NCBI RefSeq assembly: GCF_964355755.1
Contig: NC_092670.1
Location: forward strand, 8,493,201-8,557,200
Source of the DNA: Antedon mediterranea
Taxonomy: Eukaryota > Echinodermata > Crinoidea > Comatulida > Antedonidae
Direction of reading: 5' to 3'
Length of the DNA stretch: 64,000 nucleotides
In this document: positions 4,727 through 59,572 of the stretch, one piece after another
Layout of the letters: each line of letters begins with the position of its first letter
Position numbering within the stretch: position 1 is the stretch's first letter
Translations under genes and position numbers: made by a program
The notes under the pieces: model-generated
What the model was told of the DNA's origin: nothing
Databases searched by the model: none
What the model saw: the letters and a program-made list of their open reading frames with translations, nothing else

Positions 4727-4764
4727 GCCTGACCATGGAGTAATTCTTTACTCCATGGCCTGAC
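4727..4764. mobile_element. Tiny palindromic insertion with 7-bp target duplication (copy 1)
   Basis: A 24-bp core at 4734-4757 reads CATGGAGTAA, TTCT, TTACTCCATG: a perfect hairpin with 10-bp arms and a 4-nt loop. It lies between two perfect copies of GCCTGAC at 4727-4733 and 4758-4764. Core ends match copies at 5084-5110 and 55317-55345. Direct repeats of constant length around a palindrome are the signature of insertion. Mobility is inferred. Confidence 0.65.
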
Positions 4765-5076: not shown

Positions 5077-5117
5077 GTTGGACCATGGAGGTATAAAATA
5101 GACCTCCATGGTTGGAC
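5077..5117. mobile_element. Tiny palindromic insertion with 7-bp target duplication (copy 2)
   Basis: A 27-bp core at 5084-5110 has 9-bp arms CATGGAGGT and ACCTCCATG around a 9-nt loop. It lies between perfect GTTGGAC repeats at 5077-5083 and 5111-5117. The first seven bases match copy 1, 350 bp away, but the interior and the target repeat differ. The pair is therefore not a simple segmental duplication. Confidence 0.65.
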
Positions 5118-7256: not shown

Positions 7257-8700
7257 ATTATACCCGCCCCAGGGCGGGTTTCAAAATTAGTTTACAGCCT
7301 TCTCAGTACATAACACCCGACGCCAGTATCTGTCTATACTCACCAACATCCACCCCTCAATAACACCCCATACTCTTTCTTAAAAACAAAATCTTCCCAG
7401 TGATGGACAAATTCAATTCAACCTAAGCTTCGAATTGAGAGGAGTATTCATAACTACGATGGGTCTAATAATGGTTGTAGTACGTTGTAAATTGTGTAAA
7501 TGAATAGGTGTCATATTGGCTGATAATTAAAATTTGTAATTTAGATACTGCGGGCACCCAGCCTTCTTTCTCCTTTCACCACCCCAGACACCATCAACAA
7601 ACCTTAACTCCTCCCCTGGACAGTTCAAATTTAGTAACTTTTCCTAGTACAATCCAATCATATAGGCTACTTCATTACGCTAGTATTTTCGCTCCTCCTC
7701 CCTCTACAAAAAACACACCCCAGATACACTGGGTGATCTGTTGAAGCCGGTTCCAGTACAATTTATATTATTATCACTCCCAACCCATAATCCCTCAGTG
7801 GCAGTTTTCAAATGTAGTTTAAAACATTCCAAATACAGTTTCGGTCATGGTGATAGGCCTAGATGTACATCCCAACCCCAAACTCCCATCCGCTTCCCAG
7901 GGATGATTAAATACTTTAAAAGTTTCCAACCACAATTCTGGTGTAAGCAAAATCCCCACTCTCTCCTGAAACCAAACTCCCAACCCCTATCTCCCAACCC
8001 CACTCTCCCACAATGTACGTTTTTTTCCTTGGAGGATTGGTGATGTAGTTGAACACAGTAACAGTAAACAACATGTGTATGTTCACACAGGTATGGATGT
8101 CTGTAATGAGGCAATCCAAGAGACCAACAAATAGCTGGATATGGTTAAAGTACTTTGCTAAATGTGTAATTGAATAGGTGTCATATTGTTTAATGAATAA
8201 AATATGTATATCTATATTTCCCCAAACGCCTTGCTGAGGATAATTCAAATACTTTAAAACTTTTGTAGTATAATTTTACAATTCGATAGCCTACAACCCT
8301 GAGCCCTAGCAAAAATGACATCACAAACCACCACACAACCACCCCCCCCCCCCACCCATTCCACAAAAACCCCAGGATTCGGGGGAATTTTTTAAAATGT
8401 AGTTTAAAACCTTCCGGGTACAATTGCCATCATTTTGATACCCCATACGTATGGTTACGTGCAGACACAGAAATTTTTATAACGAACAAACATCGAAAGT
8501 GGGGGTTTTGACCACATTTTGGTCCCTAACTTGGATCCTAGGTGGCGGATGATGTTGAAATATAGCTTAGAACATTCCCGGTACAATTGCGGTCATTTTG
8601 ATACCCCATATGTAAGATTATGTGCAGTAACAAAATTTTGTATAACGAACAAACAGACAAACAAACAAACAGACAAACTCTCTCACTTATAATATAGATA
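7257..8700. repeat. Decayed modular repeat with an RTE-like tail
   Basis: The segment opens with ATTATACCCGCCC and ends with (GACAAACA)n, then CTCTCACTTATAATATAG, resembling the tail of RTE-type elements. Inside, a module built around AAATGTAGTTTAAAAC, then TTCC and a GTACAATT-like word, recurs near 7270, 7625, 7812, 8245, 8393 and 8553. The last two copies share GGTCATTTTGATACCCCATA or close variants. Frames within it are repeat shadows. Class assignment is tentative. Confidence 0.4.
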
Positions 8701-12660: not shown

Positions 12661-15600
12661 ATTACAGAATACAGCATGAAATATAAATGTGAACACTGTG
12701 GAGTTAAGTTGGAATTCAGTGACTTGAAAGAACATTTAGGATTACACAATCATTCTAAAGAAATAAAATGTGAGCTCTGTGAAGATACAATTGACAAGTG
12801 TAAGCTACATAATCAGACACCATATGAATGTGATCATGAGGAGGAAGGAAATCGGAATTTGAAAAAACATTTGAGCACAAACACAGGAGAGACACCATAT
12901 GAATGTGAACATGAGAAGGAAGGAAATAGGAATTTGAAAAAACATTTGAGCACAAACACAGGAGAGACACCATATGAATGTGAGCATGAGAAGGAAGGAA
13001 ATAGGAATTTGAAAAAACATTTGAGCACAAATACGGGAGAGACACCATATGAATGTGAGCATGAGAAGGAAGGAAATCGGAATTTGAAAAAACATTTGAG
13101 CACAAACACAGGAGAGACACCATATGAATGTGAGCATGAGAAGGAAGGAATTCGGAATTTGAAAAAACATTTGAGCACAAACACAGGAGAGACACCATAT
13201 GAATGTGAGCATGAGAAGGAAGGAATTCGGAATTTGAAAAAACATTTGAGCACAAACACAGGAGAGACACCATATGAATGTGAGCATGAGAAGGAAGGAA
13301 ATAGGAATTTGAAAAAACATTTGAGCACAAACACAGGAGAGACACCATATGAATGTGAACATGAGAAGGAAGGAAATTGGAATTTGAAAAAACATTTGAG
13401 CACAAATACGGGAGAGACACCATATGAATGTGAACATGAGAAGGAAGGAAATCGGAATTTGAAAAAACATTTGAGCACAAACACAGGAGAGACACCATAT
13501 GAATGTGAGCATGAGAAGGAAGGAATTCGGAATTTGAAAAAACATTTGAGCACAAACACAGGAGAGACACCATATGAATGTGAGCATGAGAAGGAAGGAA
13601 ATAGGAATTTGAAAAAACATTTGAGCACAAACACAGGAGAGACACCATATGAATGTGAACATGAGAAGGAAGGAAATTGGAATTTGAAAAAACATTTGAG
13701 CACAAACACAGGAGAGACACCATATGAATGTGAGCATGAGAAAGAAGGAAATAGGAATTTGAAAAAACATTTGAGCACAAAAACAGGAGAGACACCATAT
13801 GAATGTGAGCATGAGAAAGAAGGAAATCTGAATTTAAAAAAACATTTGAGCACAAACACAGGAGAGACACCATATGAATGTGAGCATGAGAAGGAAGGAA
13901 ATAGGAATTTGAAAAAACATTTGAGCACAAACACAGGAGAGACACCATATGAATGTGAGCATGAGAAGGAAGGAAATAGGAATTTGAAAAAACATTTGAG
14001 CACAAACACAGGAGAGACACCATATGAATGTGAGCATGAGAAGGAAGGAAATTGGATTTTGAAAACACATTTGAGCACAAAAACAGGAGAGACACCATAT
14101 GAATGTGAACATTGTGGGAAGAAATTTAAACAAAGCTGGAATTTGAAAATGCATTTGAGAAAACACACAAGAGCGACACCATATGAAAATTGTGGTATGA
14201 AATTTAATCAAAATTTAAAGATTCTATTGAGAAAATACACAGGAGAGACACCATATGATTGTGAACATGGTGGTAAGAAATTTAAACAAAATGGAAATTG
14301 GAAAATACATTTGAGAAAACACAAAAGAGAGGCACCATATGAATGTGAACATTGTGGAATGAAATTTACACGGAATGCTACTTTGTCAGCACATTTAAAA
14401 ACACATAACACACCTTATGAATGTGAACATTGTGGGAAGAAATTTAAATGGAAGCTTACTTTGGAAACACATTTGAGAACACACAAAAGAGAGGCATCAT
14501 ATGAATGTGAAAATTGTGGGAAGAAATTTAGAAAAAATGTAAATTTAAAAATGCATTTAAGAATACACACAAGAGAGACACCATATGAATGTGAACATTG
14601 TGGTAAGAAATTTAAACAATATGGAAATTTGAAAATGCATTTGAGAACACACACAATAGAGACACCATATGAACGTGAACATTGTGGTAAGAAATTTAAA
14701 CAAAGTGGAAGTTTGAAGATACATTTGAGAACACACACAGGAGAGACACCATATGAATGTCAACATTGTGGACAGAAATTTAAACAAAATGGAAATTTTA
14801 AAATGCATTTGAGAACACACACAGGAAAGACACCATATGAATGTCAACATTGTGGACAGAAATTTAAACAAAATGGAAATTTGAAAATGCATTTGAGAAC
14901 ACACACAGGAAAGACACCATATGAATGTGAACATTGTGGTAAAAAATTTAAACAAAATGAACATTTGAAGATACATTTGAGAACACAGGCAGGAGAGACA
15001 CCATATGAATGTGAACATTGGGGTATGAAATTTAAACAAAGTGGAAGTTTAAAGATACATTTGAGAACACACACAGGAGAGACACCATATGAATGTGAAC
15101 ATTGTGGTAAGAAATTTAAACAAAATGGACATTTGAAAATGCATTTGAGAACACACACAGGAGAGACACCATATGAATGTCAACATTGTGGACAGAAATT
15201 TAAACGAAATGAACATTTGAAAAGACATTTGAGAACACACACAGGAGAGACACCATATGAATGTGAACATTGTGGTAAGAAATTTAAACACAGTGGGGAC
15301 TTGAAAAAACATTTGAGAATACACACAGGAGAGGCACCATATGAATGTGAACATTGTGGTAAGAAATTTAAACAAAATGGGGTTTTGAAAAGACATTTGA
15401 GAACACACACAAGAAAGGCACCATATGAATGTGAACATTGTGGTAAGAAATTTAAACACAGTGGGGACTTGAAAAAACGTTTGAGAATACACACAGGAGA
15501 GGCACCATATGAATGTGAACATTGTGGTAAGAAATTTAAACAAAGTAGAAGTTTGAAGATACATTTGAGAACACACACAGGAGAGACACCATATGAATGT

Positions 15601-16773
15601 CAACATTGTGGACAGAAATTTAAAAACAATGGAAATTTGAATATACATTTGAGAATACACACAGGAGAGACACCATATGAATGTCAACATTGTGGAAAGA
15701 AATTTAAACAAAATGGAAATTTGAAAAAGCATTTGAGAATACACACAGGAGAGACACCATATGAATGTGAACATTGTGGTAAAAAATTTAAACAAAATGA
15801 ACATTTGAAGATACATTTGAGAACACACACAGGAGAGACACCATATGAATGTCAACATTGTGGACAGAAATTTAAAAACAATGGAAATTTGAATATACAT
15901 TTGAGAATACACACAGGAGAGACACCATATGAATGTGAACATTGTGGTAAAAAATTTAAACAAAATGAACATTTGAAGATACATTTGAGAACACACACAG
16001 GAGAGACACCATATGAATGTCAACATTGTGGACAGAAATTTAAACTAAGCTGGAATTTGAATATGCATTTGAGAACACACACAGGAGAGACACCATATGA
16101 ATGTCAACATTGTGGACAGAAATTTAAACAAAATGGAAATTTGAAAATTCATTTGAGAACACACACAGGAGAGACACCATATGAATGTGAACATTGTGGT
16201 AAGAAATTTAAACAAAGTGGAAGTTTGAAGATACATTTGAGAACACACACAGGAGAGACACCATATGAATGTGAACATTGTGGTAAGAAATTTAAACAAA
16301 GTGGAAGTTTGAAGATACATTTGAGAACACACACAGGAGAGACACCATATGAATGTGCACATTGTGGTAAGAAATTTAAACACAATGGGGACTTGAAAAG
16401 ACATTTGAGAATACACACAAGAGAGGCACCATATGAATGTGAACATTGTGGTAAGAAATTTAAACAAAGTGGAAGTTTGAAGATACATTTGAGAACACAC
16501 ACAGGAGAGACACCATATGAATGTGCACATTGTGGTAAGAAATTTAAACACAATGGGGACTTGAAAAGACATTTGAGAATACACACAAGAGAGACACCAT
16601 ATGAATGTGAACATTGTGGTAAGAAATTTAAACAAAATGGGGTTTTGAAAAGACATTTGAGAACACACACTAGAAAGGCACCATATGAATGTGAACATTG
16701 TGGAACGAAATTTACACGGAATGCTACTTTGAATGCACATTTAAAAACACATAACACACCTTATGAAATTTAA
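12661..16773 (+). CDS. C2H2 zinc-finger protein with a 17-unit degenerate finger array (1365 aa, start 12676)
   Basis: Probable sequence-specific DNA-binding nuclear protein. The exon follows an acceptor (TTTTCTTTCAG) ending at 12660. ATG at 12676 matches the conserved start MK[YC]KCEHCG of the paralogue at 22016. Residues 1-47 hold an N-terminal finger-like module. Residues 48-472 are 17 copies of a 25-aa unit, TPYECEHEKEG..NLKKHLSTNTGE, with only one Cys and one His. Residues 473-1360 are 32 finger repeats on the [15 protein letters not shown] plan, most with all four ligands. Ligands are lost in repeats 2, 3, 8, 11, 12 and 17 (for example CEHWG at 12, LRTQ at 11). No KRAB, SCAN or BTB domain is visible. 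DNA target unknown. The stop follows HNTPYEI, and decayed finger sequence continues downstream, so the gene may once have been longer. Confidence 0.8.
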   Translation: MTEYSMKYKCEHCGVKLEFSDLKEHLGLHNHSKEIKCELCEDTIDKCKLHNQTPYECDHEEEGNRNLKKHLSTNTGETPYECEHEKEGNRNLKKHLSTNTGETPYECEHEKEGNRNLKKHLSTNTGETPYECEHEKEGNRNLKKHLSTNTGETPYECEHEKEGIRNLKKHLSTNTGETPYECEHEKEGIRNLKKHLSTNTGETPYECEHEKEGNRNLKKHLSTNTGETPYECEHEKEGNWNLKKHLSTNTGETPYECEHEKEGNRNLKKHLSTNTGETPYECEHEKEGIRNLKKHLSTNTGETPYECEHEKEGNRNLKKHLSTNTGETPYECEHEKEGNWNLKKHLSTNTGETPYECEHEKEGNRNLKKHLSTKTGETPYECEHEKEGNLNLKKHLSTNTGETPYECEHEKEGNRNLKKHLSTNTGETPYECEHEKEGNRNLKKHLSTNTGETPYECEHEKEGNWILKTHLSTKTGETPYECEHCGKKFKQSWNLKMHLRKHTRATPYENCGMKFNQNLKILLRKYTGETPYDCEHGGKKFKQNGNWKIHLRKHKREAPYECEHCGMKFTRNATLSAHLKTHNTPYECEHCGKKFKWKLTLETHLRTHKREASYECENCGKKFRKNVNLKMHLRIHTRETPYECEHCGKKFKQYGNLKMHLRTHTIETPYEREHCGKKFKQSGSLKIHLRTHTGETPYECQHCGQKFKQNGNFKMHLRTHTGKTPYECQHCGQKFKQNGNLKMHLRTHTGKTPYECEHCGKKFKQNEHLKIHLRTQAGETPYECEHWGMKFKQSGSLKIHLRTHTGETPYECEHCGKKFKQNGHLKMHLRTHTGETPYECQHCGQKFKRNEHLKRHLRTHTGETPYECEHCGKKFKHSGDLKKHLRIHTGEAPYECEHCGKKFKQNGVLKRHLRTHTRKAPYECEHCGKKFKHSGDLKKRLRIHTGEAPYECEHCGKKFKQSRSLKIHLRTHTGETPYECQHCGQKFKNNGNLNIHLRIHTGETPYECQHCGKKFKQNGNLKKHLRIHTGETPYECEHCGKKFKQNEHLKIHLRTHTGETPYECQHCGQKFKNNGNLNIHLRIHTGETPYECEHCGKKFKQNEHLKIHLRTHTGETPYECQHCGQKFKLSWNLNMHLRTHTGETPYECQHCGQKFKQNGNLKIHLRTHTGETPYECEHCGKKFKQSGSLKIHLRTHTGETPYECEHCGKKFKQSGSLKIHLRTHTGETPYECAHCGKKFKHNGDLKRHLRIHTREAPYECEHCGKKFKQSGSLKIHLRTHTGETPYECAHCGKKFKHNGDLKRHLRIHTRETPYECEHCGKKFKQNGVLKRHLRTHTRKAPYECEHCGTKFTRNATLNAHLKTHNTPYEI
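12817..14091 (+). repeat. 17 x 75-bp coding tandem repeat (degenerate finger array)
   Basis: Seventeen exact-length 75-bp units (phase marker CCATAT at 12820, then every 75 bp to 14095) are nearly identical in DNA. Variation is largely confined to one codon pair: NR, IR, NW or NL. Units 6-9 and 10-13 repeat the order IR-NR-NW-NR, a 300-bp higher-order duplication. Each unit is 9 bp shorter than the 84-bp finger from which it evidently derives. Confidence 0.95.
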
Positions 16774-18337: not shown

Positions 18338-19645
18338 TAATAAACCCTTTCTATGATTTATAATGTACAGTAGCCTTCCTATGTAATAAACCCTTTCTAT
18401 GATTTATAATGTACAGTAGCCTTCCTATGTAATAAACCCTTTCTATGATTTATAATGTACAGTAGCCTTCCTATATAATAAACCCTTTCTATGATTTATA
18501 TTGTACAGTAGCCTTCCTATGTAATAAACCCTTTCTATGATTTATAATGTACAGTAGCCTTCCTATGTAATAAACCCTTTCTATGATTTATAATGTACAG
18601 TAGCCTTCCTATGTAATAAACCCTTTCTATGATTTATAATGTACAGTAGCCTTCCTATGTAATAAACCCTTTCTATGATTTATAATGTACAGTAGCCTTC
18701 CTATGTAATAAACCCTTACTAAGATTTATAATGTACAGTAGCCTTCCTATGTAATAAAGCCTTTCTATGATTTATAATGTACAGTAGCCTTCCTATGTAA
18801 TAAACCCTTTCTATGATTTATAATGTACAGTAGCCTTCCTATGTAATAAACCCTTACTAAGATTTATAATGTACAGTAGCCTTCCTATGTAATAAAGCCT
18901 TTCTATGATTTATAATGTACAGTAGCCTTCCTATGTAATAAAGCCTTTCTATGATTTATAATGTACAGTAGCCTTCCTATGTAATAAACCCTTTCTATGA
19001 TTTATAATGTACAGTAGCCTTCCTATGTAATAAAGCCTTTCTATGATTTATAATGTACAGTAGCCTTCCTATGTAATAAACCCTTTCTATGATTTATAAT
19101 GTACAGTAGCCTTCCTATGTAATAAAGCCTTTCTATGATTTATAATGTACAGTAGCCTTCCTATGTAATAAAGCCTTTCTATGATTTATAATGTACAGTA
19201 GCCTTCCTATGTAATAAAGCCTTTCTATGATTTATAATGTACAGTAGCCTTCCTATGTAATAAAGCCTTTCTATGATTTATAATGTACAGTAGCCTTCCT
19301 ATGTAATAAAGCCTTTCTATGATTTATAATGTACAGTAGCCTTCCTATGTAATAAAGCCTTTCTATGATTTATAATGTACAGTAGCCTTCCTATGTAATA
19401 AAGCCTTTCTATGATTTATAATGTACAGTAGCCTTCCTATGTAATAAAGCCTTTCTATGATTTATAATGTACAGTAGCCTTCCTATGTAATAAAGCCTTT
19501 CTATGATTTATAATGTACAGTAGCCTTCCTATGTAATAAACCCTTTCTATGATTTATAATGTACAGTAGCCTTCCTATGTAATAAAGCCTTTCTATGATT
19601 TATAATGTACAGTAGCCTTCCTATGTAATAAAGCCTTTCTATGAT
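18338..19645 (+). repeat. 46-bp minisatellite, 28 copies, each with AATAAA
   Basis: The unit starts AATAAACCCTTTCTATGATT and continues TATAATGTACAGTAGCCTTC. GTACAGTAG recurs every 46 bp from 18365 to 19607, giving 28 copies plus a partial. The first copies read AAACCC and later copies mostly AAAGCC. A TTACTAAGA variant appears at about 18717 and again 138 bp (three units) later, showing multi-unit duplication. Each copy carries the canonical polyadenylation hexamer AATAAA on the plus strand, downstream of the zinc-finger gene. Confidence 0.95.
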
Positions 19646-20514
19646 TTTTATTTCAAAGTAAGAGTTTTCTTTTATAGTCGGTTCATTTTTGTAACAATAA
19701 AATCAAGTTTTATTCAAGGTACTGTATAATATACTATTTTCTTTGTGTATATTTGTAAACACATGGCGACAACAGGGGATAGATAGATACTATTTTGTAA
19801 TTTATATTTTTATGTTGAAGTTGAGGTATTGAGCAGAGGTACACTATAGGTTATGTTTTGGAAAAAAAAGTGTATACTGTAGTCATTAGAATTATAAAGT
19901 ACTGTAGTTATATTATAGATAACTGATTTTGCTGCAGTTTTGAAATCGATCAGAATATTCAAAACTTAATGTTGTTACGTGTTGTCAAAAGAATTGACAC
20001 AACAATGTAACACTCAATCCAAGGAGTAACAACTCTCTTCTAAATCCAATTATTAAAGTGGAATTTCAATACAATTCTGCATAATTGGCGTTATACAGTA
20101 TACTGTAAAGGCAGTGACGATCCGCTATTAGATCTCTAGATAAAGCCTTTCCCCACCCACTCTACACAATGGTAGAGTGGGTCGGTTATAATGTCTCGGG
20201 TCGTTACTCAACAAGTACTCTTACAGCATCTAAATAGATAATTCAATTTTCATAATTATACTCTCAACCAATCAAATACCGTAAATAAGTACTTGTCTGC
20301 CAGTCTATGATCCTATTTATTGCTGAGGAATGCCATTCAGTTGTATACAGTGGCAGCGAGAGAACGACTGAGGAAGACGATAATTATCATTGAGGTAGGT
20401 ACACGTTCCTAAACTAAAATATTGATTATGAGACAATCGGCGTGTGTGTTTCTTATAATTGTTAGCAGGATTACTCGAAAATGTATTGCCGATTTTCATA
20501 TGATTTTAAATTTT
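19646..20514. other. No gene seen
   Basis: AT-rich sequence. An 11-bp-arm hairpin (ACCCACTCTAC and its complement) lies at about 20155-20182, without direct repeats at its ends. The minus-strand frame at 20317-20499 shows no recognisable feature. Confidence 0.35.
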
Positions 20515-21440: not shown

Positions 21441-21964
21441 TATTCAATTTCACATGACTAGTAGGGTAAATATCAAGCTGACCACAGCAATGGAAAGTTT
21501 CACCATAGGGATTTTCATTCCTTATTTCGTATTTGTTGATATGTGGCATTGGCCCTCACAATTAACACTCTAAATATCTATTTTGTTGGTAATGTATTGT
21601 ATAGGGCTTGGTTCTATTTGATACGGCTTGGTAATTAGGAGGACCCCGATTTATGTTTCTTTACCCAGAAAAAATAGTAGGCCTAAATGCCTTAAAATAA
21701 CGCAAGCTAATATCACTCGACGCTCAAAATAATCCGTTAGCATTAGGCCTCAGTAGTAAATCTAATGAAAATAAAAACTTTATACACGACATTAAAGTCG
21801 AATACGCCAATTTTAAATTCGTTGACATTATTTTTTTACAAAACTACTGTATGTACATAAGTTTGTTTTGCAATATAGTGTAGCTAATAGAATAGTACTA
21901 CTAAGTATAGCCTGGAGGAAGTAGAATTATAGTTTTGACAATTGTACATTTTTTAGATTTATTG

Positions 21965-23347
21965 ATGAATGAATACGACTTCAACAAAGAAGAATTTAAC
22001 AGTGTAAATACCAACATGAAATGCAAATGTGAACACTGTGGATATGAATTTGAGTTCAGGGATTTAAAGGAACATTTAGGAATACACGTACATAGTAAAG
22101 AGTTTAAATGTGAAAACTCCGAGGATTTTTTGCTAAATGACCAAACACCATATTATGACTTTAAACATTGTAGGCCTAGAATTGAAGAAAGTAAACATTT
22201 TGGACTACCCATTGTCGAAAAAACTTCATATGAAATTGAACATTGTCGAAATGACGAAAGTGATAATTCAGGAAACACTGCCGTAGAAGCTTCGTATGAA
22301 TTAGAACATTGTCGAAATGAAGAAAATGAGAATTTGGGAAACACTTCTGAAGAAACATCGTATACTAAATCTGATGAAAATTGTGGAACTGAAGAAAGGG
22401 GTGATTTGGGAATTCACACTTTCGAAGAAACTTCGTTTGGTTGTGAAAATTGTGGGAAACAATTTAATAAAAGTGATGATTTAAAAAAACATTTTAAAAT
22501 TCACACAAGAGAGACACAACATGAATGTGAACATTGTGGGAAGACATTTAAACAGAATGCGAATTTGAAAAAGCATTTGAGAATACACACAGGAGAAGCA
22601 CCATTTGAATGTGAACACTGTGGGAAGAATTTTAAAGAAAGGGGGAATTTAAACAAGCATTTGCGGATGCATACAGGAGAGAAACCATATGATTGTGAAT
22701 ACTGTGGTAAGAAATTTAGATCTAGTGTAAATTTGACAAAACATTTGAGAGTACACACAGGAGAGAAGCCATATGAATGTGAACAGTGTCAAAGGAAATT
22801 TAAACACAGTGGGCAATTAAAAATACATTTTAGAACTCACACAGGGGAGACACCGTATGGATGTGAACATTGTGGAAAGAAATTTAAACAGAGAGTGATT
22901 TTGAGAGAACATTTGAGAATACACACAGGAAAGAAACCATATGAATGTATATTTTGCGCGAAGAACTTTAGAACTAGTAGTTATTTAAATATACATTTGA
23001 GATTACACACAGGATGCAAATCGTATGAATGTGAATATTGTTGACAGAAATTTATCACTAATGGGACATTAAAAAAACATTTGAGAATTCACACCGGAGA
23101 GACACCTTATGAATGTGAGCATTGTGGAAAGAAATTTAAACATAATGGATATTTAAAATTACATTTGAGAATACACACGGGAGAGAAACCATATAAATGT
23201 GAACAATGTGGAATACAATTTCAATGGGATAAAACCTTCAAAAGGCATCTAAAAACACACACACAGCTTAGAGACACTCTTTCAATCAATTACAAAATTA
23301 GAACTTACATATTTATTTTCACTCTGATTGTTAAAGCATTTGATTGA
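21965..23347 (+). CDS. C2H2 zinc-finger paralogue interrupted by an in-frame TGA
   Basis: The start is either M at 21965 ([11 protein letters not shown]), just after an acceptor-like TACATTTTTTAG, or M at 22016 (MKCKCEHCG), which aligns with the start of the gene at 12676. After the shared N-terminal module ([18 protein letters not shown]) come about four decayed finger-like repeats (SYE.EHCRN type). Canonical fingers follow (CENCGKQF onward; seven complete). The eighth reads CEYC, then TGA at 23042-23044 where a Gly codon is expected. The same frame continues through the rest of finger 8 and two more intact fingers to 23347. Either a recent nonsense allele, an assembly error or readthrough. 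Nuclear DNA-binding role inferred from the fold. Confidence 0.75.
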
Positions 23348-23980
23348 AAAGATGGAATTTCTCAATATAAAATATTGTGTTTTGGTAAAGATATGAGGCA
23401 CATATATTTTTTATTCTGTAGATGGATTCATGACAGAGAAATCAGTTTACTGAACATTTTTTTTAAGTTTTTCATATCTCCCTTTATTTTATGTTATTGT
23501 AAAGTGTATTGATTTTATGTATCGTATTCCTCGTTTTCGTCAGTCACAAAATAGTGTAATTATTATTTGTACAGTGTTACCGCTAGAATAGGCCTAAATA
23601 GTAACAATCGGTAATATTACGTGTGTTTACTCGCTTTTGAAATCTTTTCAATGTAAATTAAAGAGAAATAATATCAAATTGCACCATTCTAAAAATATTA
23701 ACAGTAAATATTCGTGCAACAACTTTTTAAACAAAATTAACTAGGGCAACTACATTGTAAATTATTGCATCTCTAAATTATTTATGGAGTGCTACGATAA
23801 CATGACTGATCTATTATATTTAAGTTATTGAAATGTTATTTCAATGTGATTTCATTATAACAGTGTTTACAATGTTATAGGCTTTGATTTATTTTTATAT
23901 TTGCTTTCATTTTAATTACTTTTATGTATGCAATCGTGTTTTCAATCAAATAGTTTATAGGCCAGTGTGTTTTGGAGTAT
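23348..23980. other. No gene seen; 3' flank of the second zinc-finger gene
   Basis: AT-rich, with no clear AATAAA close to the finger frame and no coding signal. Confidence 0.35.
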
Positions 23981-24494
23981 ATCGCAAAAATAATAGCAGT
24001 TTGTACAGTAGGTCAGTGGTGTAGGAAAGAGTGGTATCGCACAAAATAATAGCAGTTTGTACAGTAGGTCAGTGGTGTAGGAAAGAGTGGTATCGCACAA
24101 AATAATAGCAGTTTGTACAGTAGGTCAGTGGTGTAGGAAAGAGTGGTATCGCACAAAATAATAGCAGTTTGTACAGTAGGTCAGTGGTGTAGGAAAGAGT
24201 GGTATCGCACAAAATAATAGCAGTTTGTACAGTAGGTCAGTGGTGTAGGAAAGAGTGGTATCGCACAAAATAATAGCAGTTTGTACAGTAGGTCAGTGGT
24301 GTAGGAAAGAGTGGTATCGCACAAAATAATAGCAGTTTGTACAGTAGGTCAGTGGTGTAGGAAAGAGTGGTATCGCACAAAATAATAGCAGTTTGTACAG
24401 TAGGTCAGTGGTGTAGGAAAGAGTGGTATCGCACAAAATAATAGCAGTTTGTACAGTAGGTCAGTGGTGTAGGAAAGAGTGGTATCGCACAAAA
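23981..24494 (+). repeat. 56-bp minisatellite, 9 near-identical copies
   Basis: CAGTAGGTCAGTGGTGTAGG recurs at 24006 and every 56 bp to 24454. Copies are essentially identical apart from the first junction (ATCGCAAAAATAATAG against ATCGCACAAAATAATAG). Such homogeneity implies a very recent expansion. The unit shares the word GTACAGTAG with the 46-bp minisatellite downstream of the other zinc-finger gene. Confidence 0.95.
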
Positions 24495-38308: not shown

Positions 38309-41300
38309 TCAGTTCTTCTTTCCGTGACCGACGAATTCATCCATACTTTGAAGAACGCCGAAAAAGTTTGCAACTTTGAGCAGTACTTCCACTGGCAAAA
38401 TTCTGTGAAAAAAATAGTATGAATGAATTTAATTCACTTTTTATTTAAATGAGTTTATTCTTATAATCCTCTCTTTTCTCAGCTTTCTGATATTGAAAAC
38501 ACTTATTTTTTCTACTTTATTTTAGCTAAAGGTATTTTTAAATGATGAAAAATACTGATAGCTATACTCAAAATTGCCTTGTACTGCAGTATTGTTATTT
38601 GAAAGGTGAAAGTAATAAATGTTTATTGCCTGTGAACTCTGTTAGCTGTAAAATATTAGAGCCATCACCAATGCTTTATGAGCGATGTAACAAACTCCTC
38701 TGATTTTAAAGTGTTAATACTATAAGATATTAGTGGGAAACAAGCTTAAAGCATATAAAACAAACACTTGATTTCTTAACATTAAGCTGCTTTCACATTG
38801 CGAAAATATTGCGAGCGTTGAGCTTGCTTTGACATTGATAGCATGAATTCGGTATAAATCCAATGTCATAAGATAAATTGGCCTTAAACCTTTTTACTCG
38901 GGGTACCCGAGTCTAGGACTTACTCATTTTCTCCTCCATCTGGACACTATTGAGTAAAAAGTGCGATTTTTAAAGTACTACTCCTCCCTTATTAGTTGTA
39001 GTATTGAGCTGGGATTTAGCATGAATATACTACAGGGACATGTCCTCAAATCTATAGATTTTTAAATTTCAAACCGGATGCAGCCATATGACGTCTCGAA
39101 GATGATACCATATAGCCGTATTTGGTAGGTTATTGATGTGTATGTGACGTCGCATCCCGTCTTATGACGTCATTACAGCTTCATTTGCTGTATCCCGAGT
39201 ATCACACATTCGTGCTTTTTTGTTAATTAATTTGTTTAATTAAGAAGCCACAATGTGCAACACACACCACAGCGTTATGTAGTTATATGCGGCTTCTTGG
39301 CGTAGTGGTTATCACGTTTGCTTAACACGCAGAAGGTACCTGGTTCGAGCCCGGGCGAAACCTTTTTTTCCTTAAATTTATGGTGAAATATACTGTATAT
39401 GTAATATGATAATTATACAGAGTATATCAAATTTTTATTATTTTTTAAAATACTTATTTTGTGTAATCGGTAATTATCACTTTTACACATGTTTATTTTG
39501 CTTTGTGCTTATTACCATTTATTTGTAATTTAAATGGATTAAAAAACTTTCTGTAACCCACATTTTTAGTGTAAGAGGTTTCGTAGTGTAGTGGTTGTCA
39601 AGTCTGCTTAACACGCAGAAGGTCCCGGTTCGAGCCCTGGCGAAACCTATTTTTCTTTAACTTTATGGTGAAATATACTGTATACGTAATATGATATAGA
39701 GTATCTCGTTTTATTACTCGGGGTACCTGAGTCTAGGACTCTCTCATCTTTTCCTCTTCTTCTTCCATCCGGACACTATTGAGCAAAAAGTGCGATTTAT
39801 AAAGTACTACTCCTCCCTTATTCGTTGTAGTATTGAGCTCGGATTTAGCATGAATATACTACAGGGACATGTCCTCAAAACTATAGAGCCGGATTTTTTA
39901 ATTTCATACCGGATGCAGCCATATGACGTCTCGAAGATGGTACCGTATAGCCGTATTTGGTAGCGCGGTTATTGATGTGTATGTGACATTACATCCGGTC
40001 TTATGACGTCATTACAGCTTCTTTCGCTGTACCCCGAGTATTGCACATTCGTGCTTGTTTTTTATGTTTACCAGTAAGTGATCTATGGAACCCACACCAC
40101 TATTCCAATCAACAGGTCAAACATGTTGGTGTTAAACGTTGTATAAGAATACACAGTGTAACATTAGTAACATCAATTAATGTTAAGCTCTGTTTACACT
40201 ATCAAACTAGTTTGACAAAAAAAAGTGTGATGTGTCCAAATATGGTATTGTGTGTCCATATATGGGCATATCACATTTTTGTTGTCATATAAAGTTTGAT
40301 AGTGTAGACAGAGCTTTATGTACAAGCGAGAATCTTTCAATTCACTAATATCACATACTGGGACATTTTGGTGGGTCATGGTAGTGGTACAGTATGGTAG
40401 ACAAAATACTCTATCAATAAAATATGTTAAAATACACAAGAAATTACAAGAAGCACAACAATAAACATGATATGGCAGGTACCATGGATTTAATTTGAAG
40501 AGATACATAGCTTGTCTTCTCCATGCATGCGAGATACTCACGTTTTAAGATACACAAAAACGTGCATGATCCAAGGTAAGACTAAAACCTCTTGATTAGT
40601 GACGACAGCATCTACCACTCTCTTGCCAACAGATGTGGGTGACAGGCTAGGTAGTATGAATGGATATCTATAATGAAAAGTATACAATGTTCTAGTACCA
40701 ATATCCAAAGTAATCTCAATGGGCCTTTTGCTTGAATGAACATTAGAATGGGTTTATGAAATATGTGGAGTGAAAAAAAGACAGCAAACTACACCATTAT
40801 TTATGTGATGCTCTTAGAGTTGCTCTAAGTTGTTCTAGTTTTAGTTGTTGTTGTTGTTGTTATTATTTCTTTACTATGTGTACCACTAGTCAATGGCACA
40901 TAGTACAGCATCTCGGTCTGTATTCTAGCTCAAATATTATACATATGAAACGCCAAAATAATCATCATAAGTCAAATCACTGTCTAGAACCTAGACCAGA
41001 TGTGTTTCATGAATAGAAAGGTAAATGAACAAATATTTTCTTGATACGGATAGTCTGTGAATATTAGGAATAAAAAAAGTTGTTTTTGAGATGTTCCATA
41101 AAAATATTCAAATTGTAAGTTGTTGCAATTGGTATTTTTTTAAATTTTAAATAGCCGCCTATAAAATAAAGTTGTCAAATTGAAAAAAAAGCCCTTTAAC
41201 ATTTGCCACAATATTTTTTATGAACTAAAACAGATATTTATTTGAGCTAATTTCCTGTTTTGCATAAATTCACCCAAATTCCTTCTTTTCTATAAAGCTC

Positions 41301-44646: not shown

Positions 44647-44688
44647 ACTACCCATGGAGCTATAACATTTTATAGCTCTATGACTACA
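44647..44688. mobile_element. Possible degenerate tiny palindromic insertion (copy 4)
   Basis: The core 44653-44682 starts CATGGAGCTATAA and ends TTATAGCTCTATG: 12 of 13 arm positions pair around a 4-nt loop. It begins like copies 1 and 2. Both sides carry ACTAC, but the two 7-bp flanks are not in exact register, so target duplication is not proven. Confidence 0.4.
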
Positions 44689-45808
44689 CTATATAGATTT
44701 ATAAAGCGCTTTTCCAAAACAAAATTAATTAGAGCAGTATATAAGGACAAAATTATTTCCTAAGGGAAAAGAAAACTTTTTCTTCTAAATACATTATTAA
44801 TGTGTATTTATATATTTTTTTCATATAATTTGATATCTTAAATATGTCTATTTTTGTGTCTATGTAATTTTTACACATACATACACTAACAGTCACTACA
44901 AGGATATGGATCTAATGCATGCAGTTTATATTATATTAAGACCAAAAAACAATACTCAACAAACTGAATATTATGTCGCATACTGTATTTTTTGTTTGAA
45001 TTAATTATTTTTAATCGTATTTTAATTGTATTTTACACTGGCCTATTTTACCAATTAATGGCATGTATCATTTTTTTTTTTTTTGATGTATTGTCTTTTT
45101 GCCTGAGAAAAATTAATTTCCATTTTAAGTGAACCCCTTAAACTTTTAGGTTGATTTTATCAAATTTGTATAATAAAAATATAATAATATATTAATAATT
45201 ATATTTGAAATAGTGTATTAATTGAAATTTGTATATTCAATTCAATTCAACAACAACATTTAGTTCATCAATGGCTCAGTATAACTAACAAATAGTAAAA
45301 AAGATATCAAATAGATTGATATAAAGAAACCATAATAGGATCATTACTAGAAGATCTTGAAAGAAGAAAATCTTGTCACGTAAGACCCTTTTAGAGTAAT
45401 GATTTATACATTGTTGATTTACAGACTAAACAAATCAAAATTTGATCAATAAAATCAATAAAACAAACAAAAAACAGAATAGTAATATAAATAATAATAG
45501 TTATATTCATGAACGCTTTAATACAATGATAGGAAATATCTTTTTAATTTATTCCGAAAGGTAAAAAGAGAAGTTTTAATAGTGACATATTTACTACTTA
45601 GCAATATTCTAGAGGGCGGTAATATAAGCCATTGATTTTATATTATAATACAGATATTTTAACGAAGAAAGAGAAAATGATTTTTATATCTAAATGATTC
45701 AATATAAATAATTTTATAATTTATATATTTTATTCCTTTGGTAGTTATGAGATTTAAAATAAATTAACAATAAATTATTTAGATACAAAATTGTTTAGAA
45801 TCAAGTGG
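44689..45808. other. No gene seen; interval between divergent dehydrogenase and RPL7 genes
   Basis: Very AT-rich with no conserved frame. The two genes are divergently transcribed about 1.5 kb apart. Confidence 0.35.
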
Positions 45809-52642: not shown

Positions 52643-54445
52643 TAGACCGGGCGCCCGGAAGATTTATTCATGTGAAAAGATACAAAAGGTTTGATGATGT
52701 AGTTAGGTGCGTATTAGGGCGAGATGCAATATTCGACATTGCTGCCGGGTCACAGCCTGTACATAGGGCCTGTGGGGATCATAACATAGGGGGGTAAAAA
52801 TGCATTTATTTATGTGAAGCGATACAAGGATAAACTTTTTTGGATATCATTCGCAGTGGGCTACTAATGATTACATCACCAATGACAGCAACTTTATCCT
52901 GTACGGGGCGCCAAACAGCAACATTTTAGGGCCACGCCCAAATGGGTTTATTCATGTGAAGCGATACAAGGTTGAATCTTTTTTTAATGGCAGCAGTATA
53001 TATTGGGGATGGCAAAAACACCAATGACAGCAACTTTATCCTGTACATAAGCTCAGACAGCAGCCCCAAAGGTCCGCAGTTTCCCCCTATTCGGCTATAT
53101 ACTCGGCGCGTATGTCGTCTATTGGCGTTCATCTGAGTTAGAAATACGTGATACGGACTCGGACTGACAATAAATACACAGTAGAATGCTAAAACAATAA
53201 ATAAAGAGAGCAGTTGTTTCCTGTACCAAATCATCAAACATCAAACTCTTAGGAACTCGCCCAAAATGGGTTTATCCATGAAGTGTGTAATCATTTTTGA
53301 AAAAAATGTTGTTTTTTTTTACTTTTTCGGTACACAGCAGCTCAAATACCCGAGGCTCCATTCGTGATCAACAATGTTGATAATACAAACACATTCACGA
53401 TAACGAGTGACTTTTATTTTATAATTGAAATATATCTTTATTTTGGAATAATAAATAACACCAACAAAAACACTTAAAATAACCAACAGCAGATTTGTAT
53501 TTTAGGGTATCATTTTGAACAATCAATATTATATCAAAATCATTATTTCACAACACAAAATAATATAATTTAAGAATATTTTTCAGATAAACTAATTAAT
53601 AATTACACTCATAATGATCGACACCGGTACCGATTATTGTGCTTTATTATTATAACTCGATTTAAATATTGTTTTAATTACACACTAGACACTAGTGATA
53701 TGTCTATATGAAAAAAGGCAATGAAATCTAAATTTGCAACATTTTTTACATAACATAACATAATAGTAAAGTAAATAATAGTTCGAATTCAACATAATCA
53801 CTTAGAAAATTGGTAAGGTATAGATTAGACTATCGATTGCACACTATTACTGTATTTTTAATTCAATTTAAATTTAAAAAAAAGTAACAGTTTTCATGTG
53901 AATTAGACTGATAAAAACCAACAAATAACTTAATCTGCCAACATTTTAAACATCGTTACTTGTCCATAATGGATCGACTACTGTATCGATTACTGCACAT
54001 TGTTTTACTTTAACTGAAACAAAGTCAAATTTTTAATTGTTACTGTACTAATATTAGACAGTGATATCTGATAAAAGGCAACATTAATTAATATTAATAA
54101 TACTGAACCAAATTAAATATCGTTACTTATCCACAATGGATCGACTACTGTATTGGTTATTGCACATTATTTACTAACTAAAATAAGAAAGTGATATCTG
54201 ATAAAACGCAACAAACTGAATCGAATTAAATATCGTTACTTATCCATAATGGATCGACTACTGTATTGATTACTGCACATTATTTTACTATAACTGCCCA
54301 AGTCAAATTTAAAATTGTTACTGTACTAACATTAGACAGTGATATCTGATAAAATGCAACATACTCAGGACCAAATTAAATATCGTTACTTATCCATAAT
54401 GGATCGACTACTGTATCGATTATTGCACATTATTTAACTATAACT

Positions 54446-56281
54446 TTTTAACTACTAATCTTTTCAATACACAATTTGTAAACAACTTTTGCATAGATAA
54501 TGATCAGCATTGTGATTTGGATACAATAGATTGTCTTACCAACTTTGAATGTGAACCCTTTGTGATGCCTGAGGTATTTTATGCCCTCTCACAGTTAAAT
54601 GTATCCAAATCACCAGGACCTGATTGTTTGCTTCCAGTATTCTTAAAGTCATGTAAGGCACAATTGGCTAATGTTTCACCGGTGAATGTTTTATGTACAT
54701 TCTTTAATTTAACTGTACAAAAAGGTATTTTACCAAAACAATGGAAGGATGCAAATGTTGTACCTATTTTCAAAAGAAATGGAAAACCCAAAGACGAAAT
54801 GAAAAGCTATCGTCCAGTGTCTTTAACTCCCATAATTTGTAAGATTATTGAGATATTTCTTTGCTATCGTTTAAGGGAATATCTAGAATATAATAATATC
54901 CTTTCAGAAAATCAGTTTGGGTTTAGACAAATGTATAGTACTGAACTTTTACTTTCAAAGGTTTTTCATTCATGGGCACAGAGCTTAGAACTTAAAGGCT
55001 GTAAAAATATTGATATTATTTTTCTTGATTTTTCGTCTGCATTTGATAAGGTGTCTCATAAAAGATTAATTAAGAAACTTAATAACTGTGGCATTGGTGA
55101 GAACACTAATGCATGGATTACAGATTTTCTTTCAAATAGACACCAAATGGTTATTTACAGAGGAGAAAAGTCAGAGTGGGTAAATGTTACTTCAGGGGTA
55201 CCACAAGGGTCAGTTTTGGGCCCTCTTTTATTTTTGATTTACATAAGTGATATTGTAAATAATATTTCTTCTTCACTTTTTCAATTTGCTGATGATCACA
55301 CATTATCACGTCCTATCAGGGAAGAGTTAATTTAACTCTTCCCTGGTCCTATTTATAACAATAATGATTGTAAATTACTTCAAAAGGATTTAGATTCAAT
55401 TGCTAAATGGGCAAATGTAAACCAACTTCCCTTAAATCCTGTCAAATGCGCCGTAATGCATGTTACAAGATGTAAAGATATAGTTAACTGGGATTATACC
55501 ATAGAATCAGACAATATTCCTAAAGTTACAGAATTAAAATTTCTAGGTGTTTATGTAAATAGTTCGATGTCTTGTCATACACAAGTTAATTATGTATGTT
55601 GTAAAGCAAGCAGATTGCTTGGTTTTATTTCAAAATGTAGTAAAAATATGTCCTGGTTAGCTATGTTGAACTTATACAAAGCTCTATAACTTCCAGTGAT
55701 TACCTACTGTTGTTCAATGTGGGCACCATTTGAGAAATCACATACTAATAGAATAGAAAGTATACAAAGGAAAGCAACAAGGATAATAATGTTTAGAAAG
55801 GAAGGTTCCTGGGAAACCTCTTATTTTCATAGGTTGAAAGTGCTTGAATTATTATCTATTGATGACTTGTTTAAATTACATAGACTTTCATTAGGATTTA
55901 AGTTGTTGAAAGGTTACTGCCCCCATTCTTTCAATGAGTATATTAAAACTAGTGAAAGATGTCCGGGTAGGCTTTTACGTTGGAATTCGAAAGGCAATAC
56001 TTTTCATAATTCTGTATTTGTTTCCTTTCCTAGACTATGGGAGCAAATACCAAATGACATAAAAGATTCACAAAAAATTTCAATATTTAAGGCTGCTCTA
56101 ACAAAACACTATATTTCATGTTATGTATAGTTTATTTGTATTTTTCTTGTATATGGTTTTATCTTAACTGTTTGTATTGTATGGAGTGAGTGCAGAATCT
56201 GTTTGGGCTTTAGCCTATTTTCATTCCTGGTTATTTTTACATTGATGACCGAATAAATATTATTATTATTATAATTATTAT
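54446..56281 (+). mobile_element. 5'-truncated non-LTR retrotransposon inside the left foldback arm
   Basis: A 1836-bp insertion between direct repeats TATAACT (54439-54445 and 56282-56288), ending in GAATAAAT(ATT)n. One reading frame from 54517 to 56130 encodes an RT domain (SPGPDCLLPVFLK, KSYRPVSLTPIICKI, ENQFGFRQMYSTELLL, IIFLDFSSAFDKVSHKRL, TSGVPQGSVLGPLLFLIY, FADD) and the post-RT region (TELKFLGVYVNSSM, VITYCCSMWAP, IQRKATRIIM, PRLWEQIPNDIK). The endonuclease domain is missing. Two in-frame stops interrupt it: TAA at 55333 inside a tiny palindromic insertion, and TAA at 55687. CR1/Jockey-like group by motifs; the clade was not resolved. Confidence 0.85.
55310..55352. mobile_element. Tiny palindromic insertion with 7-bp target duplication (copy 3), in the LINE RT gene
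   Basis: The 29-bp core (55317-55345) has 14-bp arms CAGGGAAGAGTTAA and TTAACTCTTCCCTG around a single T. It lies between perfect GTCCTAT repeats (55310-55316 and 55346-55352). Core plus one repeat is 36 bp, so the LINE frame resumes in phase after it, but the insert brings a TAA stop. This is the clearest evidence that the palindrome entered an existing sequence. Confidence 0.75.
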
Positions 56282-56999
56282 TATAACTGCCCAAATCAAT
56301 TTTAAAATTGTTACTGTACTAACATTATACAGTGATATCTGATAAAATGCAACATACTCAGGACCAAATTAAATATCGTTACTTATCCATAATGGATCGA
56401 CTACTGTATCGATTATTGCACATTATTTTACTATAACTGCCGAAGTCAAATTTAAAATTGTTACTGTACTAACATTATACAGTGATATCTGATAAAAGGC
56501 AACATTAATAATACTGGACAAAATTAAATATCGTTACTTATCCACAATGGATCGACTACTGTATTGATTATTGCACATTATTTTTCTCTAACTGAACCCA
56601 GGTCGAATATTGTACATGCAGTGTAACTACCGACACACTGTAAAAGCACAATTGAGCAAAGACATCGAGGTTACTGGCTGTATGCATTAAAATAACTGAA
56701 TATTGTACATTCAACATATTCCATTGTTACTAGCTAAAAAGAATACACGATATAATAAAACCAATAGGGGCTATTGTATTTCTTTTTACATGATTTGTGA
56801 CAGCGTCATTTATAAATTTGATTATATCACACTGTAATGATACTGGATTCTGCTTGCCAACTATCTATGGATCAAATAGTTCAGTATTTACATTTGATAT
56901 ATTATATACAATATTTACTTCAAAACTGTCAAATGTTTTATGTAAACGATTAAAAACTATTAAATCAGCCGTAATGCATAATCTTTTTAGTTTATCTAT

Positions 57000-57545
57000 T
57001 CGTCATCATCACAGTCACTTTCACTGTCATCACTCCAAGGTTGGTCATCATCGATTTCAGCTTCAAAATCTATTATTTCAAGTTCTTCATCATCAGTTTG
57101 TTCCAATATTCCTGCATCAGTATCGTCAAGAACTTTGTTCCGAGTGTGGATCACTAGTCAATGGATCTGGTAGAGCATTTCCATCAAACCATTTCGGTAC
57201 ATACCTTCCATCACCATTATCAACCCATCCATAGTTTAATGGGCGTAGGTTTTGTGTTGGCTGAGGAGTATGAGCGTGTCTCCACATAAGATACATAATT
57301 TGCCCTCAACAGATGCTGAGTGATTGTGATTTCACATGGTGGCAATGACGAACAGTTGATCTTCTTGACTTTCTTCTTTCCAGTTGTCATTTTGCGAAAC
57401 GATTGGTACCTGGCCTCATTAATACTGTTCATGCTTTTAAACCCATATATCTTGCATACATAGGCAGTGACTGCGGGTTTGTCCATCCTGTCACCACAAA
57501 GCGATCGCAATGACTTGCCTTTGCGGTAAAATCCAGTATCATTAC
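57000..57545 (-). pseudogene. Gene remnant in the centre of the foldback element
   Basis: The minus-strand frame from about 57541 reads TGFYRKGKSLRSLCGDRMDK, then CKIYGF, SINEARYQSF, SSLPPCEITITQHLLRANYV. After a frameshift near 57233 it continues NYGWVDNGDGRYVPKWFDGN. A further shift leads to an acidic end (DDEELEIIDFEAEIDDDQPW). The pattern GD-R-LPP-QH-RA-YGW recalls a multicopy uncharacterised protein family common in invertebrate genomes; that comparison is from memory. No catalytic motif is seen. No ATG at the start and two frameshifts, so probably inactive. Confidence 0.5.
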
Positions 57546-59572
57546 AGTGTGATTATAATCAAATTTATAAATGACGCTGCCACAAATCATGTAAAAAGAA
57601 ATCCAATAGCCCCTATTGGTTTTATTATATCGTGTATTCTGTTCAGCTAGTAATGGAATATGAGGAATGTACAATATTTAGTTATTTAATGCATACAGCC
57701 AGTAAACTCGATGTCTTTGCTCATTGTGCTTTTACAGTATGTCGGTATGCAAAATATTCGACCTGGGTTCAGTTGGAGATAAGTAACGATATTTAATTTG
57801 GTCCAGTGTTATAAATGTAACAATTTTAAATTTGACTTGGGCAGTAAAATAATGTGCAATAATCGATACAGTAGTCGATCCATTATGGATAAGTAACGAT
57901 ATTTAATTTGGTCCTGAGTATGTTGCAGATACCACTGTCTAATGTTAGTACAGTAACAATTTTAAATTTGACTTGGGCAATTATAGTAAAATAATGTGCA
58001 GTAATCAATACAGTAGTCGATCCATTATGGTTAAGTAACGATATTTAATTCGATTCAGTTTGTTGCGTTTTATCAGATATCACTTTCTTATGTTAGTTAG
58101 TAAAATAATGTGCAATAATCAATACAGTAGTCGATCCATTGTGGATAAGTAACGATATTTAATTTGGTTCAGTATTATTAATATTAATTAATGTTGCCTT
58201 TTATCAGATATCACTGTCTAATGTTAGTACAGTAGCAATTAAAAGTTTGACTTTGGTTCAGTTAAAGTAAAACAATGTACAGTAATCGATACAATAGTCG
58301 ATCCATTATGGACAAGTAACGACGTTTAAAATGTTGGCAGATTAAGTTTTTTGTTGGTTTTTATCAGTCTAATTCACATGAAAACGGTTACTTTTTTTTA
58401 GTAATAGTGTGCAATCGATAGTCTAATCTATACCTTACCAATTTTCTAAGTGATTATGTTGAATTCGAACTATTATTTACTTTACTATTATGTTATGTTA
58501 TGTTAAAAAATGTTGCAAATTTAGATTTCGTTGCCTTTTTTCATATAGACATATCACTAGTGTCTAGTGTGTAATTAAAACAATATTTAAATCGAGTTAT
58601 AATAATAATAAAGCACAATAATCGGTACCGGTGTCGATCATTATGAGTGTAATTATTTAGTTTATCTGAAAAATATTCTTAAATTATATTATTTTGATCG
58701 AAATAATGATTTTGATATAATATTGATTGTTTAAAATGTTACCCTAAAATACAAATCTGCTGTTGGTTATTTTTAAGTGTTTTTATTGGTGTTATTTATT
58801 ATTCCAAAATAAAGATATATTTCAATTATAAAATAAAAGTCACTCGTTATCGTAAATGTGTTTGTATTTTTCACATGAATAAACACGAATGGAGCAAAAA
58901 AGAGAGAAAGAGAGAAAAAACGATTCATACTTCATGGATAAACCCATTTTGGGCGAGTTCCTAAGAGTTTGATGTTTGATGATTTGGTACAGCAAACAAC
59001 TGCTCTCTTTATTTATTGTTTTATCATTCTGCTGTGCATTTATTGTCAGTCGGAGTCGGTATCACGTATTTCTAACTCAGCTGAACGCCATAAGACGACA
59101 TACGCGCCGAGTATATAGCCGAATAGGGGGAATCTGCGGACCTTTTTAGGGCTGCTGTCTGAGCTTATGTACAGGATAAAGTTGCTGTCATTGGTGTTTT
59201 TGTCATCCCCAATATATACTGCTGCCATTAAAAAAAGATTCAACCTTGTATCGCTTCACATGAATAAACCCATTTGGGCGTGGCCCTAAAATGTTGCTGT
59301 TTGGCGCCCCGTACAGGATAAAGTTGCTGTCATTGGTGATGTAATCATTAGTAGCCCACTGCGAATGATATCCAAAAAAGTTTATCCTTGTATCGCTTCA
59401 CATGAATAAATGCATTTTTACCCCCCTATGTTATGATCCCCACAGGCCCTATGTACAGGCTGTAACCCGGCAGCAATATCGAATATTGCATCTCGCCCTA
59501 ATACGCACCTAACTACATCATCAAACCTTTTGTATCTTTTCACATGAATAAATCTTCCGGGCGCCCGGTCTA
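57525..59572 (-). repeat. Right arm of the foldback element
   Basis: About 2.05 kb, the reverse complement of the left arm. Module copies lie near 57875, 58017, 58130 and 58297, fewer than on the left, so module number has changed since the arms formed. Confidence 0.8.

Follow-up and report, generated by a model that had tools for sequence, protein, structure and literature searches.

The 29-bp palindrome that interrupts a LINE reverse-transcriptase (RT) gene in Antedon mediterranea is quite probably the end-joining scar of an excised P-superfamily transposon and not a tiny mobile unit. Palindromes of this kind are real, non-random and numerous, and are best explained by known biology; scars of this type seem to be very numerous in the genome and mark former transposon sites. 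Dispersed palindromes with 7-bp repeats, which can be mistaken for a family of miniature mobile elements, are readable as a fossil record of excision and end joining. The window analysed here is the whole stretch of 64,000 nucleotides (C1:8493201-8557200), and the genome searched comprised 354,431,138 bases in 18 contigs.

The palindrome and its LINE host

Scar S1 consists of two perfectly complementary arms around one centre base, placed between two exact copies of GTCCTAT (Table 1). This anatomy had been given in the preliminary description and was confirmed, together with the 36 bp of extra DNA (29 + 7) that keep the reading frame and bring in an in-frame TAA. That the palindrome is secondary to the LINE, as also claimed there, is concluded from the restored frame, the continuity of the RT homology and the existence of empty sites. 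When the flanks of S1 are joined without the insert, the RT reading frame continues, and the Pfam RVT_1 match ends at profile position 165 on the left of S1 and restarts at 165 on the right. In 90 of 120 homologues the alignment extends 15 or more residues beyond the junction, and in 81 of these 90 it is free of gaps up to 10 residues from that point. Furthermore, at least 14 LINE matches in the same genome cross the site in 127-136 bases versus 171, and a single GTCCTAT with no palindrome was found in six of the seven other LINE copies read, which are the clean empty sites that the preliminary description had proposed to look for.

The seventh copy (L001, on contig C8) carries the same insert. 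It does not represent a second event, because the scarred LINE lies there inside a near-identical copy of a 6.9-kb element. This foldback-like inverted-repeat element has 1.8-kb arms (92%) and the ends TAGACCGGGCGCCCGG, and its loop holds repeats of about 150 bp as well as the scarred LINE; the C8 copy (L049) is 99.97% identical over 6,910 aligned bases, has other flanks, and its identity stops 23 bases short of the right end of the window element. The S1 palindrome pattern gave 0 matches in the viral contig collection, and the LINE protein gave no confirmed relative in the viral and genome contig collections.

Table 1. Features of the window, with positions counted from its first base.
Feature	Position	Strand	Observation
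LINE reverse-transcriptase frame, host of S1	54517-56132	+	broken by the scar and one further stop
Left 7-bp target duplication of S1, GTCCTAT	55310-55316		present once in each of the six LINE copies with an empty site
S1 palindrome, CAGGGAAGAGTTAA-T-TTAACTCTTCCCTG	55317-55345		arms 55317-55330 and 55332-55345, 14 nt, 100% complementary, 1-nt spacer; probably two joined inverted-repeat ends of a departed transposon; arms recur at 20 dispersed loci that were read, almost every one with a duplication of its own
Right 7-bp target duplication of S1, GTCCTAT	55346-55352		exact repeat of the left copy
Scar S2, GCCTGAC + CATGGAGTAATTCTTTACTCCATG + GCCTGAC	4727-4764		palindrome 4734-4757; exact duplication
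Scar S3, GTTGGAC + CATGGAGGTATAAAATAGACCTCCATG + GTTGGAC	5077-5117		palindrome 5084-5110; duplication readable as 8 bp too
Scar S4, decayed, ACTACC (one base lost) + CATGGAGCTATAACATTTTATAGCTCTATG + ACTACAC	44647-44689		insert 44653-44682
Scar S5, one-sided, CTATAAC + ATTACTCCATG + CTATAAC	6007-6031	-	insert 6014-6024; 7- or 8-bp duplication
Foldback-like inverted-repeat element	52643-59572		contains the scarred LINE
Two tRNA-Val(AAC) genes	39291-39363 and 39576-39649		in a duplicated block
Large tandem C2H2 zinc-finger arrays	12676-16773 and 21935-23213		84-bp units; the first also has a 150-bp repeat region coding EKEGNRNLKKHLST units
Near-identical tandem array	18338-19647		46-bp units (98%)
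Near-identical tandem array	23980-24494		56-bp units (99%)

Palindromes with target duplications in the window and across the genome

The window contains three exact scars (S1-S3), one decayed (S4) and one one-sided (S5), and the palindromes other than S1 are probably scars of related families ending CATGGAG. The insert of S5 is not palindromic; its reverse complement, CATGGAGTAAT, equals the S2 end, a single transposon end being left. Taken alone S5 is weaker, because 7-bp direct repeats are common (a repeat 10-34 bases away from a random site occurs at a rate of 0.0056, 534/94,571), and it draws its weight from the fact that the repeats flank exactly the S2 end.

The same abundance, 540 direct repeats of 7 bp within 45 bp in the unmasked window, might suggest that a chance palindrome had met a chance repeat, but the combination is so rare in randomised sequence that this has a negligible probability. 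The window has 3 instances of arms of at least 9 nt with an exact abutting 7-bp repeat, and 400 dinucleotide shuffles gave 0. Of 128 palindromic positions, 3 had matching 7-mers on either side, versus 12 matches in 38,400 offset tests. When the arms were relaxed to 8 paired bases out of 10, 3 exact 7-bp cases in the window compare with 3 summed over 40 shuffles. Twenty 10-kb pieces taken at round coordinates (200 kb) were added to the window, giving 264 kb, in which 8 palindromes begin with CA[G/T]GGA and have perfectly paired arms of 8 nt or more; all of these carry the duplication, 7 of them as an exact 7-bp repeat and 1 with one mismatch, and S4 misses the perfect-arm threshold and stands outside these 8. 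The 200-kb sample has 13 exact 7-bp cases, of which 4 are counted scars, 8 lie in tandem arrays and 1, in L046, is a 55-bp case within a repeated stretch that was left out of the scar count. The check for which the preliminary description had called is answered by the shuffles of the window together with the 200-kb sample: palindromes flanked by 7-bp repeats lie far above chance. By extrapolation, 8 scars in 264 kb would amount to roughly ten thousand genome-wide.

The S1 palindrome recurs at at least 22 places outside the LINE, 20 of which were read (L009-L028); with S1 itself and the sample locus L038 these form the S1-family set of 22 loci. The duplications are exact and 7 bp long at 17 loci and exact and 8 bp long at 2, with one mismatch at 2 and two mismatches at 1. 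The inserts measure 29 bp at 15 loci, 30 bp at 2, 31, 32 and 33 bp at 1 each and 34 bp at 2, the last two (L018 and L019) having a common duplication. Among the 16 distinct exact duplications, counted together with their reverse complements, the second base is T and the sixth A in 91%, and the first is G or A in 87%. The 29-mer has only two centres (A or T), at many independent sites. The sister pattern CATGGAGTAAN6TTACTCCATG, of the S2 type, occurs at 27 places in the genome; in the 20 read, four of which have common flanks, the duplication is exact in 16 (15 of 7 bp, 1 of 8 bp), has one mismatch in 2 and is neither in 2.

A wider set was obtained with the 17-nt arm CAGGGAAGAGTTAAATT, which has 693 matches in the genome, against 0 for the reversed control. 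Forty regions were read around such places among the matches listed on C1: an exact 7-bp repeat follows the TG end in 15/40 and an exact 8-bp repeat in 5/40, and the remaining 20/40 show altered duplications, no partner, or special structures. One of the latter, L068 (C1:23594980-23595577), is a tandem array whose unit resembles a P-type scar with its duplication (GTTGGAC CAGGGAAGAGTGAAATTACATTCTAGTTAA...), and gives the impression of a satellite that arose by amplification of a footprint. In another, L055 (C1:3582085-3582571), a 427-bp element that ends in CAGGGAAGAGTTAAATTACAATT... is bounded by inverted and not direct repeats. No partner end lies close to L074 or L088. L074 was considered as a full-length element and rejected: the 7 kb read contain one TTCCCTG without a duplication after it, and no partner end was recognised there.

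Several loci share flanks and are not independent, namely L018/L019; L051, L061, L064, L069, L072 and L075; L052/L053; L060/L079; L070, L071 and L073; L076/L077; and L095, L100, L102 and L104. Several of these groups are probably passengers in larger repeats.

Joined transposon ends or mobile palindromes

The following course of events would account for S1. An element with the ends CAGGGAAGAGTTAAATT... would have entered the LINE and duplicated GTCCTAT, the copies of which now bound the insert. If its transposase behaved like that of Drosophila P, it would have cleaved precisely at the element's 3' ends and, on the 5' strands, well inside it (in flies, 17 nt inside the inverted repeat; PMC7776569), leaving each broken chromosome end with a single-stranded tail made of the outer inverted repeat. 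The two tails, which have one and the same sequence in opposite orientations, may then have been trimmed back and, after pairing through a few self-complementary bases, joined; the resulting order of duplication, end, inverted end and duplication, a near-perfect palindrome, is what is found at the site. Copies of a scar can thereafter travel as passengers of larger repeats, as the scarred LINE copy on C8 has done. In such a scheme the 29-mer may correspond to two tails ...TTAAATT with an imperfect AA[A/T]TT overlap, the 30-mer to a perfect AATT overlap and the 34-mer to a blunt 17+17 join.

Junctions of this architecture are known from the fly. Excision of P{wa} yields the 8-bp duplication followed by CATGATGAAATAAC(AT)GTTATTTCATCATG and the duplication again, a 30-bp palindrome that was recovered in 14 isolates where 68 junctions were sequenced (PMC2895639, Tables 1-3), and shorter, unequal, insertion-bearing and near one-sided products are described in the same work (PMC2895639). 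The inserts in A. mediterranea are outer inverted-repeat ends set head to head with variable centres. On C1 the junctions include perfect 42-bp palindromes as well as others of 36, 33, 30 and 28 bp, and unequal ones of 20+10 (L080), 20+6 (L081) and 17+5 (L086) nt; unequal or one-sided remnants are represented by S5, L080, L081, L086 and L087. Because of the varied centres, the loci with one end or nearly one end and the likeness to fly junctions, these sites most likely once housed a larger transposon that has since left.

The opposite reading takes the palindromes themselves as mobile, as ends-only mini-elements of about 24-66 bp that are cut and pasted in trans by a P-type transposase. It would suit the occurrence of an identical 29-mer at many loci, each with an independent 7-bp duplication, and the finding of 693 arms with no full-length source in the 264 kb or among the matches listed on C1. 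Centres nevertheless differ within one family, and S5, L080 and L086 have target duplications with no complete second end and so are not whole mobile units; both complete ends and one fixed interior, as expected in every copy of a mini-element, were not found throughout. P substrates, moreover, need far more end sequence: at least 138 and 216 bp are reported for P elements in flies, and the end regions of Anopheles P-MITEs are somewhat under 100 bp (PMC1562414). Since variable centres and one-sided copies are in themselves marks of a footprint, and P substrates need longer ends, we regard self-mobility as quite unlikely. The same low probability is given to its strongest form, in which the 29-bp palindromes would be transposition-competent, the smallest cut-and-paste elements known, driven in trans by a P-type enzyme after loss of the source, with the one-sided copies as their scars. 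A bolder variant, in which the source elements are removed en masse in body cells and the genome of the soma shows scars only, appears highly improbable. The preliminary description had likewise seen in the palindrome an undescribed mobile unit; its secondary insertion and true 7-bp duplication are upheld, and the mobile unit is not supported, in view of the variable centres, the one-end loci and the fly-like junctions.

Returning to excision scars of a P-type element, the length of the arms calls for a qualification. S1, which keeps some 14-15 nt of each end, and the copies of 29-34 bp stay within a 17-nt stagger, and some inserts measure 36-66 bp, above twice 17 nt; arms of 18-23 nt per end are common to L050, L052, L054, L058, L059, L062, L063 and L066. 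A limit of 17 nt on every arm, which L018 had suggested, was dropped when further loci broke it, and the set is not classed as footprints of a fly-like 17-nt cutter because several copies keep more than that of each end. The 17-nt value was measured in the fly and is not known to characterise the P superfamily as a whole. For this part of the set one has to assume that the stagger was longer, that bases were added or that gap repair was aborted.

Gap repair has to be considered for the whole set too. Synthesis of this kind (SDSA), aborted after excision, might delete the interior and leave the two ends with no direct joining of tails. It would explain arms above 17 nt, inserts of 41-66 bp and the 427-bp L055; incomplete gap repair figures in discussions of how structural variants of P and Galileo arise (PMC4168063), and SDSA together with end joining is common after P excision in flies (PMC2895639). 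As a general account it is nonetheless unlikely, as it offers no obvious reason for the concentration of inserts at 29-42 bp, and the direct end-joining products of the fly fit the short scars better (PMC2895639).

P-type transposases, the source element and known systems

The genome has 35 matches to the P-type transposase domain PF21787 and 75 to THAP. Two of the PF21787 places, L091 (C1:2820415-2827415) and L092, are copies of one element, 5,551 and 5,562 bp long, 99.4% identical and with perfect 32-bp inverted repeats. An open reading frame of 794 aa in L091 matches PF21787, PF21788 and the solved P transposase 6p5a (E 1.5e-14), and a third place, C3:37950354, equals L091 and L092 in its PF21787 score; this multi-copy P element of about 5.55 kb has probably been active recently. 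When the ends are taken as symmetrical, the duplications of L091 and L092 are the 7-bp CGGACAC and TATAAAC, which by letters alone are readable as 9 and 8 bp. One P-element family of this very genome thus makes 7-bp duplications. It is not the source of the scars, because its ends start CTGAGACAAC (CTGAG...) and not CA[G/T]GGA. Another PF21787 place, L093, shows no clear ends within the 4.6 kb read.

A full-length element with CA[G/T]GGA ends, exact arms and an exact 7-bp duplication was not found in the 264 kb, and among the matches listed on C1 facing exact 17-nt ends 1-20 kb apart occur only between neighbours that are each closely partnered. A THAP-like regular expression has two matches in the window, one where a zinc-finger gene begins and one with no further support. 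The sample locus L038 contains, at 5559-7548, a candidate element of 1,990 bp with 14-bp inverted ends TAGGTATCCCAATG and the 7-bp repeat CTTTTAG. The apparent absence, so far as searched, of an intact source with CAGGGAAGAG..., CAGGGAAGAGTTAAATTACAATT or CATGGAGTAA ends constitutes a testable puzzle.

Because no source element with CA[G/T]GGA ends was met in the parts searched, another cut-and-paste superfamily (hAT, Dada or other) might have left the scars. Ends of hAT elements can begin CAGGG, which counts in favour of such an origin, and excision of hAT elements leaves hairpins on the flanks and not long inverted-repeat remnants, which counts against it. The hAT element hobo also favours GT...AC-type targets (GTNCGNAC), but its duplications are 8 bp. 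For Dada, duplications of 6-7 bp are described, mostly inside multicopy RNA genes; this does not agree with S1, which sits in a LINE, and two tRNAs were the RNA genes identified in the window, neither of them at any of the five scars. Duplication length, motif and type of remnant jointly fit the P superfamily best, and an origin in one of these other superfamilies is therefore judged rather improbable.

The source would accordingly belong to the P superfamily, to judge by the length and motif of the duplication, the architecture of the remnants and the P elements that the genome contains. Duplications of 7 or 8 bp with a GT...AC preference, as in that superfamily, are present, the preference being common to hobo. 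Since GT...AC is not specific to P, and since several copies keep over 17 nt of each end, our confidence in scars of a P-type element is slightly lowered. No report of natural, genome-wide palindromic P scars was noticed in the open-licence PubMed Central literature searched. At the density extrapolated above, junction choice, use of microhomology and target preference would become measurable at scale in a non-model animal.

Among known systems, the P element of the same genome (L091/L092) resembles the scars in its 7-bp duplications; it carries a P-type transposase and differs in end sequence. 1360/Hoppel and Galileo, both of the P superfamily, also make 7-bp duplications with a palindromic preference, at GTTNAAC in 1360 (PMC3276498) and GTANTAC in Galileo, a few copies of which have 8 bp (PMC4168063); these are whole elements of flies, whereas ends-only remnants in another animal are seen here. 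The P-MITEs of Anopheles share P ends and a target duplication without a transposase gene, but they have an unrelated interior and 8-bp duplications (PMC1562414), whereas almost only the outermost ends are present in A. mediterranea. The comparison with Drosophila P excision sets a fly assay beside a natural genome, and an 8-bp duplication with a CATGATGAAATAACATA tail beside mostly 7-bp duplications with CA[G/T]GGA... and arms of 18-23 nt in several copies. In both, nevertheless, a target duplication encloses the two inverted-repeat ends, fused head to head into an almost perfect palindrome, and both have short microhomologies, small insertions and near one-sided products.
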